From: a virus
DNA: 64,000 nucleotides
IMG/VR virus record: IMGVR_UViG_3300033153_008183
Coordinates: 1-64,000 of that record
Reading direction: 5' to 3' (one strand)
Shown: piece by piece, positions 3,007 to 14,011 of the stretch
Layout: each line of letters opens with the position of its first letter
Position numbering within the stretch: position 1 is the first letter of the stretch
Position numbers and translations under genes: made by a program
Notes under the pieces: model-generated
The model's database searches: none
What the model was told of the DNA's origin: nothing
What the model saw: the letters and a program-made list of their open reading frames with translations, nothing else

Positions 3007-5679
3007 ATGGAATCATCTTTTTTTGACTTTGGTGAAATAGTAGAAGAGAATCCTTTTTCCACTAAAGCAAATGCTTGTGATGTGTGTTCTAAAAGATTAA
3101 AAATAAATACTCCAATTATGAAGTTTGCCGGAAAAGGTGAAAGAAAGATTTTAATAATAAATGGAGCTCCCAGTAAAAAATCAGATAGAGAAGGAAAACC
3201 TTTTCAGGATAAAGCAGGGAAATTATTAAAAGAAACTTTAATGGAATTGGGACTTAGTTTAACCAGAGATACTATTTATGGTTATGCTGTTAGTTGTCAT
3301 ATTCCTTTAAAAAATAAAAAATCTAATGTGAATGATGCTGACATCAGAAGATGCCATAACATTCTCACAGCAAAAATAAATGAGTTTAAACCTCATGTGA
3401 TAATTACCCTAGGAATAGCTGCTGCCGCCAGTGTGATAAGAACCAGAGCAGCCGGTAGACTTACTGGTATTAAAATGACTGCTTATTATGGAGAACAAAT
3501 TCCGGATCAGGATTGGAAAGTTTTTATCTGCCCCACCTGGAGTCCTGAAGAAGTTCGTAAATCAGTTGACTTTAAAAATGTAATTGATCCTGTTGTTATG
3601 AAGCAGTGGAAAAGAGATTTAAGAAAAGCTATCAATCTTCTAATTACTCCGTTCTACACTCACAATTATAGCAATGATGTAATTGCTCTTCATAAATTAA
3701 AAGAATCTTTAAATATGCTGGACACTATTTATAAAACCTGGACTCATGTAACTTTTGATTATGAGACAACCGGAATTAAACCACATAGAGAAGGTCATTA
3801 TATTGATTGCGTGGGATTTTCTAATGGAATTATAGGTGTGGGGATGCCTTACTTTGATGATCCTGAATTTCATAAAAAAATGAAACTAATTCTCAGAAAT
3901 ACTAAAATTAAAAAGATAGCTCATAATGCTAAGTTTGAAGATACCTGGTCTCATATCCGGGGAATTAAACAGCATGTCCGAAACATGTATTGGTGTACAA
4001 TGATAGGTGCTCACTGTCTCCATAACAAAAAGAATGTTGGAGCTAAATATTTAATATTTTGTAAACTTGGAATTCTCAATTATGATTCTGAAGTAGACAA
4101 ATATTTGAAACCTACTGAAGAAGAGGAATTAAAATATGGAAGAAATGCGATTAATCAAATTCATTTAGCTGATACTCATCAAAAACTTTTATATGTAGCT
4201 CGTGATGCTCATTTAGAATATAAATTATTTGAGTACCAGGATTCCAGATTAAAAGGAAAATTAAGAGAAGGATTTTTATTTCTTCATAAAGGAACTATGG
4301 CTCATGGTATTATGGAAGCTGCCGGTTTCAAATTAAATATGGAAGAAGCTGAATTAAATACCGGTTTTGTAAAAGCTAAAATGGATGGTCTCTGGGATCG
4401 TATACTTGAATTACCTGAGAGCAAAGGCTGGGACCGGAAAATACAGGGAAAAGGATTTCAACATCATATTTATGATATGTTAAGATTTGAAGAACCCGTA
4501 GGAATGTCAGATGATTTGAAACCCGGAAACAGACCTGAGAATGAAGAAGCTCTTCTCAGTCTTAAATCAAGTTTTACTGACACTATTGTTAAAATAAGAA
4601 AGCAGAAAAAAATATATGATACTTTGAATAAATATACTACTGAGGCTTGTGATGGAATGATTCATCCTATTTTCTCTACTCATAACGTTCAGACATTCCG
4701 TTCAGGTTGTTCCAATCCTAATATTCAAAATCCATTTAAGAGGAATAAGAAAGCAAGAACTATGTTACGTTCAGCATTAAGACCTTCTCCAGGGAATGAA
4801 ATATGGGAATGGGATTATAAAATGCTGGAGGTTGTAATTGCCGGTTGTGTATTTAAAGACCCTGAATGGTTGGCTTATTGTTTTGATCAGGAACACGCTG
4901 ACATGCATAAGGATGTTTCTTTTGAAATGCTCTTTCTTGATGATGAAATATATAATAAATGGATGGGAATTACAGATCCTCTTACAGGTGGTAAAGTTGC
5001 AAAGAATGTAAGACAGGCCAGTAAAAATGGTTATGTATTCCCTTCTGTATATGGTGCTGGAGTTGAAAAAACAGCTAGTGGTGTATGGAAACAATTACCA
5101 GAGATAACTAAGAAGCATTTATCTAAAATTGGAATGCCTACTTACTTTGGTGGTCCTCAGAAAGGTTCTCCCATTAGTTCTTATGGTAGATTCAAAGAAT
5201 GGATGAAACTTTACATAGATTACTATTGGAATGAAAAGTACCCTACCTATAAAGACAACAGAGACATAATGCATAAGAAATATTTAAGAGATGGTTATGT
5301 AGACATGGTAACAGGCTTCAGATACTGGGGGCCTATGAGTTTTAATAATTTTTGTAATGGACCGGTACAGGGGCCAGCTAGTCATATTAAACTATGGACC
5401 ATGGAAAAGACCCAGAAAGAAGCTAAAAGATTAGGACTTAAATCCAAACAAATATATGAGATTCACGATAGTATTGGTTGGGATGGTGTCCCAGAAGAAA
5501 GAGAGATTGTAGATGAACTCATGTTTAAATATGGAACATTACTTGTCAGAGAACATTGGGATTGGATTATATCCCCTTTGACTTTAGAAAAAGAAGTCAG
5601 CGGAATTGATGGTACCTGGAATGATATGAAGGAGATTGAAGAGAAAGAATGGGTTAAAGATGAATGGAGGAACCTGTGA
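3007..5679 (+). CDS. Family A DNA polymerase with N-terminal UDG-like [4Fe-4S] domain
   Basis: An 890-residue fusion. Residues 1-210 resemble family 4/5 uracil-DNA glycosylases: cysteines C24, C27, C97 and C116 are spaced as the iron-sulphur ligands, with INGAPS/GKPFQDKAG (51-71), ITLGIAAAAS, and a PTWSP segment where the family has its HPS/T motif. A 3'-5' exonuclease domain follows, with DYETTG (Exo I), HNAKFE (Exo II) and DAHLEYKL (Exo III). The polymerase domain has motif A (WDYKMLE), motif B (RQASKNGYVFPSVYG) and motif C (IHDSIG; the usual Glu after HD is Ser). The product is the replicative polymerase; whether the glycosylase-like domain cuts or only senses uracil is not known from sequence. 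Confidence 0.93.
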   Translation: MESSFFDFGEIVEENPFSTKANACDVCSKRLKINTPIMKFAGKGERKILIINGAPSKKSDREGKPFQDKAGKLLKETLMELGLSLTRDTIYGYAVSCHIPLKNKKSNVNDADIRRCHNILTAKINEFKPHVIITLGIAAAASVIRTRAAGRLTGIKMTAYYGEQIPDQDWKVFICPTWSPEEVRKSVDFKNVIDPVVMKQWKRDLRKAINLLITPFYTHNYSNDVIALHKLKESLNMLDTIYKTWTHVTFDYETTGIKPHREGHYIDCVGFSNGIIGVGMPYFDDPEFHKKMKLILRNTKIKKIAHNAKFEDTWSHIRGIKQHVRNMYWCTMIGAHCLHNKKNVGAKYLIFCKLGILNYDSEVDKYLKPTEEEELKYGRNAINQIHLADTHQKLLYVARDAHLEYKLFEYQDSRLKGKLREGFLFLHKGTMAHGIMEAAGFKLNMEEAELNTGFVKAKMDGLWDRILELPESKGWDRKIQGKGFQHHIYDMLRFEEPVGMSDDLKPGNRPENEEALLSLKSSFTDTIVKIRKQKKIYDTLNKYTTEACDGMIHPIFSTHNVQTFRSGCSNPNIQNPFKRNKKARTMLRSALRPSPGNEIWEWDYKMLEVVIAGCVFKDPEWLAYCFDQEHADMHKDVSFEMLFLDDEIYNKWMGITDPLTGGKVAKNVRQASKNGYVFPSVYGAGVEKTASGVWKQLPEITKKHLSKIGMPTYFGGPQKGSPISSYGRFKEWMKLYIDYYWNEKYPTYKDNRDIMHKKYLRDGYVDMVTGFRYWGPMSFNNFCNGPVQGPASHIKLWTMEKTQKEAKRLGLKSKQIYEIHDSIGWDGVPEEREIVDELMFKYGTLLVREHWDWIISPLTLEKEVSGIDGTWNDMKEIEEKEWVKDEWRNL

Positions 5680-8070: not shown

Positions 8071-8502
8071 ATGAATAAAGATATGAAAGATGAACTATTA
8101 AAAATCACTAAAGAAACTTTAGATTCTGAATTACCAAAGGATGAAAACACCATAGAAAAGATTAAGAATAAATCTATCATGGCTAATGTGTATCGGCATG
8201 GTCCTCCACCAGATAATCCAGAACACATGCATAGGCAACCTCATCCTTTAAATAAAAAGAAAGCAGTCCGGTTTATTAACCAGGATGGAAGAATGTATTT
8301 TAATATGGGAGATTGGCTTAAACCATATAAGAGTAAACTCTTTGAAAGAATGGTGAAAATGACTGTAAAACCTCCTGCAAATAAGAGGTTGGATCAATTA
8401 TGGATGTGGATTGATGCCTGGCAGATAATAGAAAAAGCTGTGAAAAAGAATATGGATCCTATTGAAGTAGTTAAAACCTGGCAGTCTGGGAGATTATTTT
8501 AA
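8071..8502 (+). CDS. Hypothetical protein upstream of the clamp loader
   Basis: A 143-residue protein with a strong SD (AGAGGAG) and a stop overlapping the next start (TAATG). The N-terminal third is charged and helical; residues 75-140 contain several tryptophans (DWLKPY, LWMWIDAWQII, TWQSGRLF). No known domain. Coupling to the DnaX-like gene hints at replication. Confidence 0.65.
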   Translation: MNKDMKDELLKITKETLDSELPKDENTIEKIKNKSIMANVYRHGPPPDNPEHMHRQPHPLNKKKAVRFINQDGRMYFNMGDWLKPYKSKLFERMVKMTVKPPANKRLDQLWMWIDAWQIIEKAVKKNMDPIEVVKTWQSGRLF

Positions 8503-9443
8503 TGGGATATACTAAAAAATACAGACCAGACACTTTTGAAAAAGTTATTGGTAATGAATCACAAGTAGCTGCTCTGGAAAAAAGTATCATAAGAGATAAT
8601 CCCGTACAAGCTTATATTATTGTAGGACCTCATGGAGTTGGTAAAACTACTCTGGCAAGGGTAGCTTGTAAAGCTTTAAACATAGATCCTTTCAATATTG
8701 TAGAAATGAATTTGGCTCAGGATGGTCTTAAAAAAGATTCTGAAGAGATTACAAATGCCTGTAACACAGTCAGTATGGGAAATAGAGGTTGGATTCTTGA
8801 TGAAATGCAAGCTTCCAGTAAAGCTTTTCAAAATGGTATTCTTAAACTTCTTGAAGAGCCCCCTGCTGCAGATTTCTTTTTTATCTGCACTACTGATCCT
8901 GCTAAAATATTAGATACTGTAATAAGCCGATGTACCCCTATTAAACTTACTCTGGTTAAAGATTCTCAGATTAAAAAATTATTGAAAGGAATCTGTAGAG
9001 AAGAGAATTATCTTCTTGATCCAGAGATATTAGAAATGATTGCAGACGCTGCTGATGGTCATGTGAGAGACGCTGTTAAACTATTGGATACTGTATCCGG
9101 AATGGAGGAAGAGTTCATTCAGGAGTATCTTGAAAGTAATGTGGCAGGACTTAATGAGGATATCCCAGAAGTAATAAACTTCTGTAGGACTTATTTCACC
9201 GGTAACTCTAATAAGTCTTTAAAGATTCTTGGAGAACTTAAAAAAGAAAGGGTAGAACCTGAAACAGTTAGAAGAACATTACTGAGTTATGGTGCCTCTA
9301 TTATACTTCGAGATAGATTAAGAGCTGGCGAAAGAATTAACGAAGTAGCTGAAATGTTGGAATGGTTTGAAGAGCCCCTGTTTGATACTGGAACAGCCTG
9401 GCCTTTACTTATAACAAGAACTGTAAGAAGTTTTACAAATTAA
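8502..9443 (+). CDS. DnaX/RFC-like clamp loader ATPase
   Basis: A 313-residue AAA+ protein: Walker A GPHGVGKTT (42-50), Walker B ILDE (98-101), a LLEEPP motif (116-121) and the SRC sensor (142-144). These are diagnostic of gamma/tau and RFC small subunits, which load the sliding clamp in an ATP-dependent way. The four-cysteine zinc module of cellular DnaX is missing and no tau-like extension is present. Only one loader subunit is seen, so a homomeric loader or use of host subunits is likely. Confidence 0.88.
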   Translation: MGYTKKYRPDTFEKVIGNESQVAALEKSIIRDNPVQAYIIVGPHGVGKTTLARVACKALNIDPFNIVEMNLAQDGLKKDSEEITNACNTVSMGNRGWILDEMQASSKAFQNGILKLLEEPPAADFFFICTTDPAKILDTVISRCTPIKLTLVKDSQIKKLLKGICREENYLLDPEILEMIADAADGHVRDAVKLLDTVSGMEEEFIQEYLESNVAGLNEDIPEVINFCRTYFTGNSNKSLKILGELKKERVEPETVRRTLLSYGASIILRDRLRAGERINEVAEMLEWFEEPLFDTGTAWPLLITRTVRSFTN

Positions 9444-9457
9444 AAAGGAGATAATCG

Positions 9458-10429
9458 ATGGTAGAGATTAATCGGGACCTTAGAGCCGATAAGCAGATCA
9501 ATAAGAATCTGTTGGATGAAGAAGCAGAGATGCAGCCTTATATCTATGGTGAATGGGCAGAACTTGTTGTTCAAGCTAAAGAAGATGCTGACAAAGCTAA
9601 ACTAACACTGGACAAAGTGAAATCTGAAAGATTCATGTTCCATAAAACACCGGATGAACCAGGAGAAAAACCTGCTACAGATAAAATGGCTGAACATCTT
9701 GTAAATTCTGATCCGGAAGTTATGAAAGCTCATAAAGCTTATATCGCTGCAAATAAAGTTTTAGGTTTCTGTAAAGTAGCGGAAGAAGCTATGCAGCAAA
9801 AAAGAAGTATGATCAAAATCCTTACAGAACTTCATACTACAAAATATTTTGTAAAAGAAGAAATGGGTGTTGATGTCCGGGAGAATAAGAGAAAAACCAA
9901 AGATGCTGCAAATACTTCTATGGATGAAAATGTTTCTGAAATGAATAAGAAGCGAAAGAAGAAAAAGAAACTTCCTAAACCTGAACCGATTGTCATTGAA
10001 GAAGATGAGGAAGATGATGATTTATACGGTGATACTTTGGATGAAGATGAAGAACTTTATGATGAGACAGAAGGTATTGGAACTGTTGATCCGGAACTTG
10101 AAGAAGATGAAGAAGATCTTGATGTAGATATGGAAGAAGAAGAGGAAGAAGTTGTTACTCCTCCCAAAAACAAAAGAGTTGTTAAAAAAGGTGTGGATAA
10201 AAAGCTTACAGCTAAGAAAGCACCTAAGAAAAGAACCGTCAAGGAACAGGCTGCTCTTAATCAGATTGAAGGTAAAAGACTTCAAAAAGAAATAGCTGAT
10301 AAAAAGAAAACTGAAAAACCTAAAGGTAAGTGTCCTCATGGTTATGAGTTTGGTACATCTTTCGGGTTAGAACCTGAATGTGATGAATGTGAAATAGATA
10401 ACGTCTGCTTTAAAGCAAGATCTAAATAA
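9458..10429 (+). CDS. Acidic protein with C-terminal zinc tail shared with the phage SSB
   Basis: A 323-residue protein. Residues 1-150 are predicted helical; about 150-290 is a low-complexity stretch alternating Lys-rich and Glu/Asp-rich runs. The last 34 residues hold C292, C308, C311 and C317 in a pattern CPxGYxFG...ECDEC...C that is repeated at the end of the next gene's product. It is 15 bases from that SSB gene and shares its SD style. A replication accessory role is inferred from the shared tail and position; no family recognised. Confidence 0.7.
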   Translation: MVEINRDLRADKQINKNLLDEEAEMQPYIYGEWAELVVQAKEDADKAKLTLDKVKSERFMFHKTPDEPGEKPATDKMAEHLVNSDPEVMKAHKAYIAANKVLGFCKVAEEAMQQKRSMIKILTELHTTKYFVKEEMGVDVRENKRKTKDAANTSMDENVSEMNKKRKKKKKLPKPEPIVIEEDEEDDDLYGDTLDEDEELYDETEGIGTVDPELEEDEEDLDVDMEEEEEEVVTPPKNKRVVKKGVDKKLTAKKAPKKRTVKEQAALNQIEGKRLQKEIADKKKTEKPKGKCPHGYEFGTSFGLEPECDECEIDNVCFKARSK

Positions 10430-10444
10430 TTAAGGAGAATAATT

Positions 10445-11593
10445 ATGGCTACAAAAAAGAAGAAACATAGAAGAGTCGGAACTGAAAGAGTAGAGTCTCA
10501 TGTTAGTACCAATAATGCCAGGGGGATGTCATCTTACACTGGAGTCTTTGATTTTAAAAAATTGAAGAAAAAACCTGAAGTATTCAAAGTTACCAGAGGT
10601 AAATCCAACAGATTTAATATCATTCCCTTTGAAATCAAAACTAATCTCTTTCCAAAAGTAGCTTCCGGGGATTTATCAATCGGAGACCTGCACTATGCCA
10701 TGGAATATTATGTCCATAAGAGTGTGAATAAATCGAAAGATATTCTTTGTCTGCAGAAGAATTATGGAAAACCCTGTGCTCTCTGTGATGAATCTCGTAA
10801 TCTCTGGGATGAACATAATGAAACCGGCAGTGAAAAAACAAAGAAATTAGCTATTGCTCTGGGAGCTAAAAGAAGAGCTGTCTATAATGTTAAACCTGTA
10901 AACGGTGAAGATAAAGGTAAGATCATGTTTTATGAAGCTTCCACATATATCTTCGGTGATGAACTTGCAGAAGCTGCAAAAGAATGTGCGGATGGTGAAG
11001 GTGTAGTTGCTTTTTACGAAACAGAAGATGAAGGAAAAATTGTAAAATTTCTGGTCCCTGAAGATAAGAAAAAACCTTTCAAACAATTTTCTTTTATTGA
11101 CAGAAAGAAACCTGTTCCGGATTCTGATATCGATAAAGCTTTTTCCTGGGATGAAGCTCTTGTCATCATGACAAACAAACAGATCAAAGAATTCTACTTT
11201 GGTGAAGATGATGAAGTCACTGATGATGAGGAAGAAGAAGAATTGGAAGAAGAGGAGGAGGAAGAAGGTGACGAGCCTGAATCTGATGATGATGACGATG
11301 ACGAAGATGATGACGAGGAAGAAGACGAAGAAGATGATGCTGACGATGATGATCGCGATAGAGAGGATGACTCTGACGATGATGAAGATGATGACGAGGA
11401 AGAAACCAAACCTGTAAAAAAGAAAAAGAAATCTACTTCCAGTAAATCCAAAACATCTTCCAAAAAGAAATCTTCTGGGGATAAATGTCCTGTTGGTTAC
11501 AAGTTTGGATCTGATTATGGAAAACATACTGAGTGTGATGAATGTGATCTGGAAATAACCTGTTACAAAGCAAAGAAAGCTAAAAAGAAATAA
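10445..11593 (+). CDS. gp32-like single-stranded DNA-binding protein
   Basis: A 382-residue protein. The N-terminal two-thirds resembles T4 gp32: a basic start, then H91, C102, C111 and C114 spaced much like the gp32 zinc site, followed by an aromatic/basic segment. Residues about 253-325 are an extreme Asp/Glu run, as in SSB acidic tails that recruit partners. Unusually, a Lys/Ser linker and a four-cysteine tail (C348, C364, C367, C373) follow the acidic run. A terminator lies right after the gene, which suggests this operon segment is expressed strongly on its own. Confidence 0.75.
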   Translation: MATKKKKHRRVGTERVESHVSTNNARGMSSYTGVFDFKKLKKKPEVFKVTRGKSNRFNIIPFEIKTNLFPKVASGDLSIGDLHYAMEYYVHKSVNKSKDILCLQKNYGKPCALCDESRNLWDEHNETGSEKTKKLAIALGAKRRAVYNVKPVNGEDKGKIMFYEASTYIFGDELAEAAKECADGEGVVAFYETEDEGKIVKFLVPEDKKKPFKQFSFIDRKKPVPDSDIDKAFSWDEALVIMTNKQIKEFYFGEDDEVTDDEEEEELEEEEEEEGDEPESDDDDDDEDDDEEEDEEDDADDDDRDREDDSDDDEDDDEEETKPVKKKKKSTSSKSKTSSKKKSSGDKCPVGYKFGSDYGKHTECDECDLEITCYKAKKAKKK

Positions 11594-11654: not shown

Positions 11655-12035
11655 ATGTCATCAGAAGTTTATCTTAAGACAGGTGAAGCAATGGCTATGG
11701 TTAGACGTTTTAAAGTGGAATACACCATTCAAGCTTTACGTCTGCAGCCATTTGCCTGGAAGAATAAAAAAGACAAACACTGGTATTTCAAACGTGATGA
11801 ACTGATTAGTTTCTTGAAAATAAGAAAAGGAACTTCTAAATGGAAATTACTTCCTTATCCTAAAGACAATAACAGAGTCCGTATGTGGAGAATTATTGCC
11901 TTGAATCGTTTAAGAGTAGCTATTTATCAGAATAAGGATGTAATCCATCATGAAGACTACGAAACCCTCCTTGAACTCCTGGATAGAAAACCAGGTAGAA
12001 TCGGTGATAAAGAAGGAAATAAAAATGAAAACTGA
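11655..12035 (+). CDS. Small DNA-binding (helix-turn-helix-like) protein
   Basis: A 126-residue basic protein. The N-terminal part (TGEAMAMVRRFKVEYTIQAL, then KHWYFKRDELISFL) follows the layout of excisionase/MerR-type winged helices, where a recognition helix is followed by a W-x-F-x-R-x-E-L strand and helix. AGGAGAG precedes the start. It overlaps the RecA-like gene by 11 bases. Possible regulator or recombination accessory; moderate confidence in fold only. Confidence 0.6.
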   Translation: MSSEVYLKTGEAMAMVRRFKVEYTIQALRLQPFAWKNKKDKHWYFKRDELISFLKIRKGTSKWKLLPYPKDNNRVRMWRIIALNRLRVAIYQNKDVIHHEDYETLLELLDRKPGRIGDKEGNKNEN

Positions 12036-13260
12036 GTTTGCTAAAACAGGATGCCATCTCCTTGACCTCTATTTTGGAGGAGGAAGAGGTTTAGGGATCC
12101 CTTATGGAATAGCAATTAACCTCTGTGGTGATTCTGGTAGTGGAAAATCTATGCTTGGAAATGAAATGATTGCTGCTGAATATCATCATAGAAAAGATAA
12201 TTTTGATTGGCAGTATGAAGATGGTGAAAACGGTAATAACTTTGATACTACTGATTTGTATGGTGTTGATATCATGGGTGGTAATTTTTTATTGGATCAC
12301 CCCAAAAAGTTACCTATTAGGCCTACAACAGTAGAAGATATGGATGCCAGACTTTCTATTTTTTTAGAACAATTACCCAAGAAACACTTTGGGATTTATT
12401 TTGTAGATAGTTTAGATTCTCTTACAGATAATGATAAAGTGAAACGTTCAGAAGATAGAAAAGAAGAATATGAAAAAGGTAAGACTTTTGATGAAGGTAC
12501 TTTTGGAATGGCTTCTGCTAAGTTTTTAAGTCAGGAGTTCTTCCGGACCCAAACAGCTAAACTTCAAGGTCGTAAAGTTATACTGGGAATAGTTAGTCAG
12601 GTCCGGGAAGTTATTGGAGCTGGTAAATACCAGAAAAAATTAAAGACCTCTGGTGGAAAAGCTAAAAAACACTGGATGGACATAGAGGTATGGTTTACTC
12701 CTATTAGAGATCTTAAAAATGAAGGTAGTGATTTAGTTAATGGTATTTTTGTAGAAGTAGAAGGTCTCAAATCACGTGATGGTCGAATGAAAAGAAAAGC
12801 CCGGTTTCTTTACTACACTGATTTTGGTATTGATGATGTTGGAACCAGTCTTACTTTTCTTTATGGAATCAGAAGTCCCAGTGGAGAATACCGAAAAAAT
12901 GTAGCTAAAAATATTTCCTGGAATCCTAAAGACACTGATAAACCTGCACCGGATCTTGATGGTGTCACTAAGTGGTTGGAAGCTGATGAAGAACGTTTAA
13001 ATAATTACAGAAATTTCCGAAAAAAAATAGATAAGAAAAGAGCTATTAAAGCCAGCACTGTTATGGAGTTTAAAGAAACTCTTCCAATATTGATTAAATC
13101 ATTTGAAGATTTCTTTGGTGCCCCTTCTGATTTTGATACTCTCAGACTACAGATAATGAAGAATCCAGAAATGAAAAAAGAACTTGATAAAAGAGTCACT
13201 GAGAAATGGGAAGCTATTGAAGCTGCAGCTAAAAGCGGTCTTGGGAGGAAATATAAATGA
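12025..13260 (+). CDS. RecA/UvsX-like recombinase
   Basis: A 411-residue RecA-fold ATPase. I use the ATG at 12025, seven bases after AAGGA, rather than an upstream in-frame start inside the previous gene. Walker A is GDSGSGKS (35-42), Walker B is IYFVDSLDSL, and a later VILGIVSQVRE segment matches the RecA core strand before L2. RecA-family proteins coat ssDNA and promote strand exchange. The context (SSB, RuvC, SbcCD) supports recombination. It is longer than RecA and could equally be a RadA/UvsX-type variant. Confidence 0.82.
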   Translation: MKTEFAKTGCHLLDLYFGGGRGLGIPYGIAINLCGDSGSGKSMLGNEMIAAEYHHRKDNFDWQYEDGENGNNFDTTDLYGVDIMGGNFLLDHPKKLPIRPTTVEDMDARLSIFLEQLPKKHFGIYFVDSLDSLTDNDKVKRSEDRKEEYEKGKTFDEGTFGMASAKFLSQEFFRTQTAKLQGRKVILGIVSQVREVIGAGKYQKKLKTSGGKAKKHWMDIEVWFTPIRDLKNEGSDLVNGIFVEVEGLKSRDGRMKRKARFLYYTDFGIDDVGTSLTFLYGIRSPSGEYRKNVAKNISWNPKDTDKPAPDLDGVTKWLEADEERLNNYRNFRKKIDKKRAIKASTVMEFKETLPILIKSFEDFFGAPSDFDTLRLQIMKNPEMKKELDKRVTEKWEAIEAAAKSGLGRKYK

Positions 13261-13490
13261 GAAATCTTACTCAAATAATGCGTGAAAATAATGTAACTGA
13301 TAAACAAATGTACGAAAAATATCAGGCTTTTAGAATTCATATGTCTAAAAATCGTAGTTTCGGTATGTCTATGAGAATGGCTTTCAGTGGTAGTGAACAA
13401 TTTGTTTTAGCTGCTTTGGGATTAAATTATTTAGAAGATGCTTTAATTCATAGAACAGAAGATCCAAAGCAAGGACGGTTATTCTCGTGA
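13257..13490 (+). CDS. Small hypothetical protein
   Basis: A 77-residue protein between the recombinase and RuvC genes; start overlaps the previous stop (ATGA) and its stop overlaps the next start (GTGA). Methionine-rich central part (MSKNRSFGMSMRMAF). No family recognised; translation coupling argues it is real. Confidence 0.65.
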   Translation: MRNLTQIMRENNVTDKQMYEKYQAFRIHMSKNRSFGMSMRMAFSGSEQFVLAALGLNYLEDALIHRTEDPKQGRLFS

Positions 13491-14011
13491 GTGCAATAAT
13501 CGTTGCTATAGACCCAGGCATTTCTGGAGCAATTGCAGTTGTCCGGAGTAGAGAAGTTTTGGAAGTTCATGATCTTCCTATTCTCACTACTCTTAAAACA
13601 ACTAAAACTAAAAGTGGAAAGCAGAAAAAAAATAATGAATTGGATATTGAAGAATTCTTTATAATGTATAAAGACATCTTAAGAACCTGGAGACCCCAAT
13701 TAGTCGTAATAGAAAAGGTGCATAGTATGCCGGGAGAAGGAAATGTTAGTTCATTTTCATTTGGCCAGGGGTTCGGAAGATTGGAAGCTATTATCCGTAC
13801 CGTAGGAGGCACTCCTGTCAGATATATAAGTCCCCAGGAATGGAAGCGACATCATAAACTTATTAAAAAAGGAAAAGATGCCTCTGTGAGTTTATGCCGT
13901 TTACTTTATCCTGGAATGCTAGATATTTTTATGAAGTCAAAAGATGGTAGGGCTGACGCTGTACTTATGGCTGAATACACCAGAGTAATGACTTTCAAGG
14001 AGGGATGGTAA
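13487..14011 (+). CDS. RuvC-like Holliday junction resolvase
   Basis: A 174-residue RNase H-fold nuclease starting at GTG 13487. The acidic residues expected for RuvC are visible: D9 in AIDPGISG, E76 in VVIEKVHSMPG, and D153/D157 in KDGRADAVLMA. RuvC enzymes cut four-way junctions using two metal ions; phage forms resolve recombination intermediates before packaging. Flanked by RecA-like and SbcCD genes. Confidence 0.88.
   Translation: MSAIIVAIDPGISGAIAVVRSREVLEVHDLPILTTLKTTKTKSGKQKKNNELDIEEFFIMYKDILRTWRPQLVVIEKVHSMPGEGNVSSFSFGQGFGRLEAIIRTVGGTPVRYISPQEWKRHHKLIKKGKDASVSLCRLLYPGMLDIFMKSKDGRADAVLMAEYTRVMTFKEGW

Follow-up and report, generated by a model that had tools for sequence, protein, structure and literature searches.

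The locus and its two tailed proteins

We analyzed bases 1-64,000 (hereafter, the window) of the 80,917-bp record IMGVR_UViG_3300033153_008183, an uncultured bacterial virus. Two consecutive open reading frames (ORFs) of the window end in the same kind of four-cysteine tail. The first encodes a UvsY-type recombination mediator, as identified by profiles and by the fold match of its predicted structure, and the second is, judging from its sequence, a single-stranded DNA-binding protein (SSB) of the gp32 type (Table 1). The consensus of the two tails is C-P-x-G-Y-x-F-G-x7-E-C-D-E-C-x5-C, i.e., 26 residues with the spacing C-x15-C-x2-C-x5-C, and 13 of the 26 residues are identical between them. 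In both proteins, an acidic stretch is followed by a lysine-rich stretch, then by the tail and by a last 6 (UvsY) or 9 (SSB) residues.

Table 1. Features of the tailed locus, in window coordinates (AF2, AlphaFold2; pLDDT, predicted local distance difference test)
Feature	Position	Strand	Evidence or remark
Clamp-loader subunit gene	8502..9443	+	phrog_5846 E=7.3e-49; directly upstream of the UvsY-type ORF
UvsY-type recombination mediator with C-terminal arm, 323 aa	9458..10429	+	PHROG, PDB profile, AF2 fold match
UvsY arm, acidic stretch (residues 177-236, net charge -33)	9986..10165	+	charge count; low pLDDT
UvsY arm, basic stretch (residues 237-291, net charge +16)	10166..10330	+	predicted helix at residues 261-285
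UvsY four-cysteine tail, 26 residues	10331..10408	+	strict pattern and profile
gp32-type SSB, 382 aa	10445..11593	+	Pfam gp32 34.9 bits; phrog_1192 SSB E=2.1e-7
SSB core internal His/Cys set (H91, C102, C111, C114)	10715..10786	+	invariant columns in 15 aligned cores
SSB arm, acidic then lysine-rich	11198..11485	+	sequence; family-wide charge pattern
SSB four-cysteine tail, 26 residues	11486..11563	+	strict pattern, profile, AF2 of tail
Small gene after the SSB	11655..12035	+	grouped with its L016 counterpart; itself a seed of that profile
UvsX/RecA-type recombinase gene	11950..13260	+	phrog_97 E=5.2e-19
Holliday junction resolvase gene	13487..14011	+	phrog_1770 E=1.9e-28

A preliminary description of this DNA had pointed to two open frames with equally spaced cysteine tails, to the position of the tail after the acidic stretch, and to its presence on a second protein. 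All three points are borne out. The strict pattern matches only these two tails in the six frames of the window and gives no match in 200 mononucleotide shuffles of it. We ran a profile of 30 tails taken from other phages (32 rows minus the two of the window) against the 521 window ORFs of at least 40 aa, and it picked exactly UvsY and the SSB (E=5.6e-9 and 2.3e-7), the next ORF having E=2.6. No third copy was found in the remainder of the record with a profile containing the window's own tails. The tryptophan common in other tails is replaced in both tails of the window's lineage.

The SSB scores above the Pfam gp32 cut-off (26.8 bits), and the His/Cys set of its core presumably sits where T4 gp32 has its structural zinc site. 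The neighbouring ORF falls below the Pfam UvsY cut-off (20.4 vs 22.8 bits), and 5 of 22 members of its family alignment are matched at E<=0.001. It is matched by the PHROG UvsY family (E=2.5e-6), and the 22-row family profile finds the solved UvsY structure 4zws in the PDB (E=1.5e-5). A Foldseek search with its AF2 model returned 4zwq (E=2e-4), T4 UvsY in all of the best 20 rows, and template modeling scores by target of 0.72-0.84 to 4zwq/4zwt among the 11 best rows. The likeness to T4 UvsY, by profile and by fold, covers a region of about 125 residues; the window protein differs by an added arm, which spans roughly 150 residues and comprises an acidic, a basic, and a cysteine part. As for T4 gp32, the window SSB resembles it in the acidic C-terminal region, in the nearby UvsY and UvsX/RecA genes, and presumably in the core His/Cys set. 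However, the acidic residues of T4 gp32 are at its extreme C-terminus, according to the available part of PMC11551737, whereas the window SSB adds a basic stretch and the four-cysteine module after them. The earlier statement that the acidic tip is normally the last element of an SSB thus holds for T4 gp32, as it does for bacterial SSBs in general.

Distribution of the tail in uncultivated phages

We searched uncultivated viral contigs with the DNA pattern for C-x2-G-x2-F-G-x7-[ED]-C-[ED]-x-C and obtained at least 120 stretches. Three further scans, narrowed by codon choice, gave 35, 68, and 48 stretches, partly overlapping the first set. The large majority of the distinct reading frames in the first scan (102 of 118) belong to one family, which includes the window SSB. 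Over the 342 loci that we fetched (designated by L and a number), the tail is carried by 234 distinct SSB frames, 3 UvsY frames, and 21 others. The tail is a common C-terminal end of gp32-type SSBs in uncultured phages, and the unusual event is its presence on UvsY. The SSB label of the preliminary description stands, as a gp32-type protein with UvsY as its neighbour, but the tail is not peculiar to this pair. The search for other tailed phage proteins that it had suggested revealed them widely among SSBs, plus a polymerase, an initiator-like protein, and a few others.

The invariance of C, G, and F in the collected tails is imposed by the search pattern itself. Features that the pattern did not request are also conserved in 114 distinct tails: the position of the fourth cysteine (104), the proline after the first cysteine (110), an aspartate (109), and the tryptophan (89). 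This set leaves out the chance match L023, a 46-aa frame, which is included in the 115 distinct tail-to-stop ends used below. Profile searches of two sets of whole contigs detected the tail in 48 of 50 contigs of one set and 42 of 45 of the other, and as a single copy in 43 and 37, respectively, counts that include a few weak partial matches (two among the 37). Since most of these contigs were chosen by the tail itself, such values mean only that it usually occurs once per contig.

We also sampled SSBs regardless of their ends. A pattern for the SSB gave at least 120 stretches, of which 80 were examined; after removal of 1 non-SSB and 9 that run off the locus, 70 SSBs remained. The tail is present in 43 (41 in frame, with L022 and L290 out of frame) and absent in 27, one of which (L269) is a 24-aa fragment only. 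The ends of the tail-less relatives are acidic, IPF-like, or rich in lysine. In a tree of 126 SSB cores (102 tailed and 24 tail-less), the tail state changes at least 16 times. Finally, a scan of one genome per species in 84,980 species gave 11 pattern matches, all in contigs of metagenome-assembled genomes. One of them is an initiator-like protein (L159), one is an SSB piece truncated where its locus ends (L160), and the other nine are SSBs.

In four loci (L022, L092, L104, and L290), the tail lies in a different frame from the SSB core. In L022, L092, and L290, the frame shifts where exactly nine A precede a G; a nine-A run is found in the linker of just 5 of the 234 in-frame tailed SSB genes. 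An assembly error, a mutation, or programmed slippage yielding both tailed and tail-less SSB are all possible. The SSB of L180 (457 aa) has two modules in tandem, the inner one weaker.

Other carriers of the module

Among 115 distinct UvsY frames in the loci, a tailed extension was found only in the window and in L001, and all listed frames but these two have at most 202 aa. A later scan added tailed UvsY proteins in L202/L237 (91% identical) and L239; the UvsY of L239 and that of L001 show a 71% match each. None of the three distinct tailed UvsY proteins has lost any of the four cysteines.

We inspected the 21 tailed frames that are neither SSB nor UvsY and, by reading them, took five as real. 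L006 has a tailed 187-aa protein of unassigned kind upstream of UvsY, with one small ORF between them. In L230, a tailed 226-aa protein with an N-terminal module lies between the clamp loader and UvsY, and the SSB of this locus is tailed too. L109 encodes a tailed 214-aa protein, again with an N-terminal module. In L179, the tail is at the C-terminus of a DnaE-UDG polymerase (Pfam PHP, DNA_pol3_alpha, and UDG in one frame, from 7969 onward, with the UDG after the polymerase), and the SSB of this locus (profile E=6.6e-22) contains an inner, degenerate form of the module. L159 encodes the tailed initiator-like protein, named by eye and with no Pfam match. The remaining 16 frames were rejected: 12 are fragments that lie open at the locus's 5' boundary and 4 are the out-of-frame SSB ends mentioned above. 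The occurrence of the module on UvsY, a polymerase, an initiator-like protein, and others indicates that it has been transferred between replication and recombination proteins. In three cases (the window, L006, and L230), the proteins that bear it lie within the same small gene cluster.

No tail found in the cultured phages and named families examined

Only one tail search of the 50,697 phage records was valid; it recovers 170 of 207 known tailed SSBs and found no credible tail, in collections from which close relatives may be missing. Two other searches of these records were uninformative because of the low-complexity filter of BLAST, recovering only 8 and 10 of the 207 at 29 bits. The four hits of the valid search were discarded, as were plasmid candidates. 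The matched protein of Brevundimonas phage H23 has no cysteines once translated (its sister H24 was judged from annotation only), two matches to Gordonia tape-measure proteins cover 16 residues only, and plasmid matches with E of 3-6 were taken as chance from their scores alone.

The window SSB used as a query gave no match in the phage records. A relative's SSB gave two weak core matches, in Edwardsiella phage ZHS and Pseudomonas phage Nican01, both of which are tail-less SSBs. The SSB of ZHS in turn led to 57 records with related SSBs. We took 8 of the 57, ZHS included, and added Nican01, i.e., nine cultured phages: ZHS, the Vibrio phages ValLY_3, KF4, and BH21-A1, SPO1 (gp32.4), Nican01, Mel-JY01 (Microcystis), 132 (Exiguobacterium), and LysYB2 (Lysinibacillus). 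All nine SSBs match the SSB profile (E of 1.8e-10 or better), and a match to the UvsY profile adjoins in 7 of 9, but none has the tail of the window SSB (0/9). Clamp loader and RecA genes are near the SSB in ValLY_3, KF4, and ZHS. UvsY, a tail-less SSB of this family, and RecA are close together in L366, L368, L369, and L370 (cultured Edwardsiella and Vibrio phages of 71-79 kb). In these four, UvsY and the SSB are both annotated as hypothetical.

The tail module appears to match no named family. We found no convincing family in Pfam, none in NCBIfam (queried with one tail and with both whole window proteins), and no convincing relative of the tail by sequence in the PDB, where an antibody match (E=7) was rejected. 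A Foldseek search with the AF2 model of the tail, which is of middling confidence, gave no match at all. A PHROG of 60 aa without assigned function, phrog_6332, may be related: 13 of 61 tails match it weakly, the best with E=0.0012. The two tails of the window, searched separately, had no match. We found no publication on such a tail in a literature search that left subscription journals mostly outside.

Anatomy and conservation of the arm

Across 168 tails, the mean net charge of the module is -6.1 (-4 and -7 in the SSB and UvsY of the window). The linker before it starts acidic (mean of -18 over 75 residues) and turns weakly basic (mean of +1.5 over 25 residues), this basic part being above zero in 56% of the cases. 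The module stands close to the end of the protein: a median of 7 residues follow the fourth cysteine, and at most 15 do in 148 of the 168 tails. The AF2 model of the SSB tail (61 rows) consists of a short bridge and a helix, with a mean pLDDT of 71.

Bacterial SSBs end in the tip DDDIPF. Like this tip, the module is short, stands at the very end of an SSB, and would serve for docking. The window SSB itself lacks the bacterial tip (acidic residues plus IPF/IPY) and ends in the cysteine module and a lysine-rich end. A bacterial-like tip, [DE][DE]IP[FY], is the last element after the module in 7 of the 115 ends (the SSBs of L026, L033, L061, L073, L098, L106, and L114), where it may recruit host SSB partners. 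A CxxCxGxG..CxxCxGxG pair is found in the linker before the tail in 11 frames (L033, L049, L051, L073, L081, L086, L096, L103, L120, L126, and the L022 piece); we take it to resemble half of the cysteine-rich region of DnaJ. The tips that follow the module, together with the other charged tips of the tail-less relatives, suggest that the end of the SSB is a site where docking elements are swapped, and the bacterial tip and the DnaJ-like pair suggest that the arm collects such elements.

All cysteines are kept in the tails of the window's lineage, where the ratio of nonsynonymous to synonymous substitution rates (dN/dS) is 0.08-0.37 in four comparisons with small counts. In UvsY, the tail and the domain show similar conservation (identity of 0.92 and 0.81 vs 0.96 and 0.78).

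A proposed docking module at the end of the arm

The four-cysteine module is probably a docking tag. It is acidic, it stands at the end of a charged linker, and at most 15 residues come after it in most tails, which argues against contact with DNA and for docking to a protein. An acidic, conserved, end-standing module on several co-acting proteins also reads as such a tag. We propose, with a probability of about one half, that the tail is a transferable metal-stabilised docking module of the phage replication and recombination machinery, with a receptor shared by SSB and UvsY. The sequences establish the module, its conservation, its position, and its carriers, from which the metal-centred folding, the docking, and the shared receptor are inferred. 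In a large group of uncultivated phages, the module would end the disordered arm of gp32-type SSBs, such that a recruiting knob would be displayed in many copies on SSB-coated DNA, for a single partner from replication or recombination. In the window's lineage, UvsY bears the same type of arm (acidic, basic, module) and could dock on the receptor of the SSB; it might then be recruited to SSB-coated DNA, or be exchanged there, during recombinase loading. The parallel with T4 supports the docking tag: the accessible text of PMC3016280 reports that UvsX and UvsY both interact with gp32 through the C-terminal domain of the latter.

Several observations weigh against this proposal. The system as such can do without the tail, since the cultured phages above have the SSB family without it. 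Besides UvsY, the carriers judged real are few (5), and two of them (L109 and L230) have the module at the N-terminus. Within full-length UvsY, the AF2 model gives the tail mostly a pLDDT below 50. In comparisons of the window SSB with those of L237/L239, the tail is less conserved (0.77/0.69) than the linker (0.91/0.82) and the core (0.98/0.90), and dN/dS is higher for the SSB tail (0.14 and 0.25) than for the core, so that firm conservation is limited to the cysteine frame. Furthermore, 6 of 154 SSB tails are closer to the UvsY tail of the window than is the SSB tail of the same genome; the corresponding counts are 30 of 154 for L001, 3 of 154 for L006, and 130 of 154 for L230. As the UvsY tail is not clearly closest to its own SSB tail, a simple, recent copying of the SSB arm onto UvsY is not supported by the ranking of tail identities. 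Finally, gene content ties no partner gene to the tail, although the kinship-aware test has low power. Directly downstream of the SSB, as at 11655-12035 in the window, lies a small gene of one of two families in 104 of 181 tailed cases, against 1 of 44 tail-less cases, this one being L092, whose tail is out of frame. When kinship was considered, about 1 of 8 independent pairs on supported branches differed in the gene: 0.9 went the same way, 0.0 the other, and 7.1 showed no difference (median p of 1). This test, which has too little power to tell the association from shared descent, gave no support to the small gene as the partner of the tail, and we do not use the gene as evidence.

Which metal the module would hold is a separate matter, on which zinc and iron-sulfur appear about equally likely. 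A zinc ribbon has two CxxC knuckles. The tail, with one CxxC pair only, is not such a ribbon, which favours the idea that the module holds a [4Fe-4S] cluster and not zinc, making SSB and UvsY redox- or iron-responsive or serving a purely structural role. We regard this idea as credible but slightly short of an even chance. The spacing of the tail is near the CX13CX2CX5C motif of NUBP1/Nbp35, which binds a stable [4Fe-4S] cluster according to the part of PMC8007109 consulted: by motif spacing, both have four cysteines, a CX2CX5C core, and a similar first gap. Yet this gap is 15 in the tail and 13 in NUBP1/Nbp35, the protein context differs, and no cluster-bearing relative was found in the PDB. 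The same CX2CX5C core forms an oxygen-sensitive Fe-S cluster in RseC, as stated in the available portion of PMC11729352. The literature on CX2CX5C includes, by title, many iron-sulfur or radical-SAM proteins but also a Zn2Cys6 factor. Family searches gave weak matches to EndIII_4Fe-2S (3 of 61 tails, best E=0.53), RseC (1 of 61, E=0.82), and three PHROGs of the WhiB-like kind, each hit by 1 of 61 tails (best E=0.028). However, cysteine-rich families of unrelated kinds reach equal or better scores (Furin-like, 4 of 61, E=0.008; phrog_38300, 2 of 61, E=7e-4), and all of these hits may thus be due to chance. The stronger idea that a transferable tag bearing [4Fe-4S] marks the SSB, UvsY, the DnaE polymerase, and the initiator of one phage machine is rather unlikely; if true, it would allow uncultured phages to assemble the tagged parts at one receptor depending on iron or redox state.

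We consider three other explanations, each of them improbable. The tails could bind each other, SSB to SSB or SSB to UvsY, and tie the mediator directly to the SSB filament. Both members of a known interacting pair are tailed here, and the L180 SSB has its modules in tandem, but most contigs have a single module, which implies that it works without a second carrier, and the acidic modules of the window should repel each other. It is equally doubtful that the module is a cap protecting the disordered arm, or that it folds back with the acidic arm on the DNA cleft of the SSB, in either case with no outside partner. Most carriers do have the module at the tip of a low-complexity arm, and the C-terminal region of gp32 has been suggested to occupy the ssDNA site when ssDNA is absent (studies cited in the gp32-Dda paper, PMC11551737, in the part available). 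A cap or fold-back accounts less well for the conservation of non-cysteine residues that the search did not request (bearing in mind the tryptophan replaced in the window's lineage) and for the module on unrelated proteins, N-termini included. The UvsY tail, for its part, might be a neutral graft of an SSB-type arm with no function of its own. It is restricted to one lineage, with 2 of 115 UvsY frames at first and 3 distinct ones after the later scan. Nevertheless, its four cysteines and their spacing are kept despite the divergence of the DNA, the tail identities of 0.92 and 0.81 given above being found at dS of 0.66 and 0.35. This makes such a graft a poor prospect.

If the tail is the docking module that we propose, it is a new variant of the C-terminal arms of gp32 and UvsY. 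The ends of SSBs decide which proteins come to single-stranded DNA, and a widespread SSB end that matched no named family and is absent from the cultured relatives examined implies that the textbook acidic tips cover only part of phage biology. Whatever binds the tailed SSB, UvsY, and polymerase would be a candidate hub of the machine.

Neighbouring genes

The UvsY and SSB genes are flanked by the clamp loader gene on one side and by UvsX/RecA, resolvase, and SbcC-like genes on the other, according to Pfam and PHROG. Further upstream, the window ORF 3007-5679 (890 aa), for which we make no family call, has by eye the look of a UDG placed before a PolA-type polymerase.

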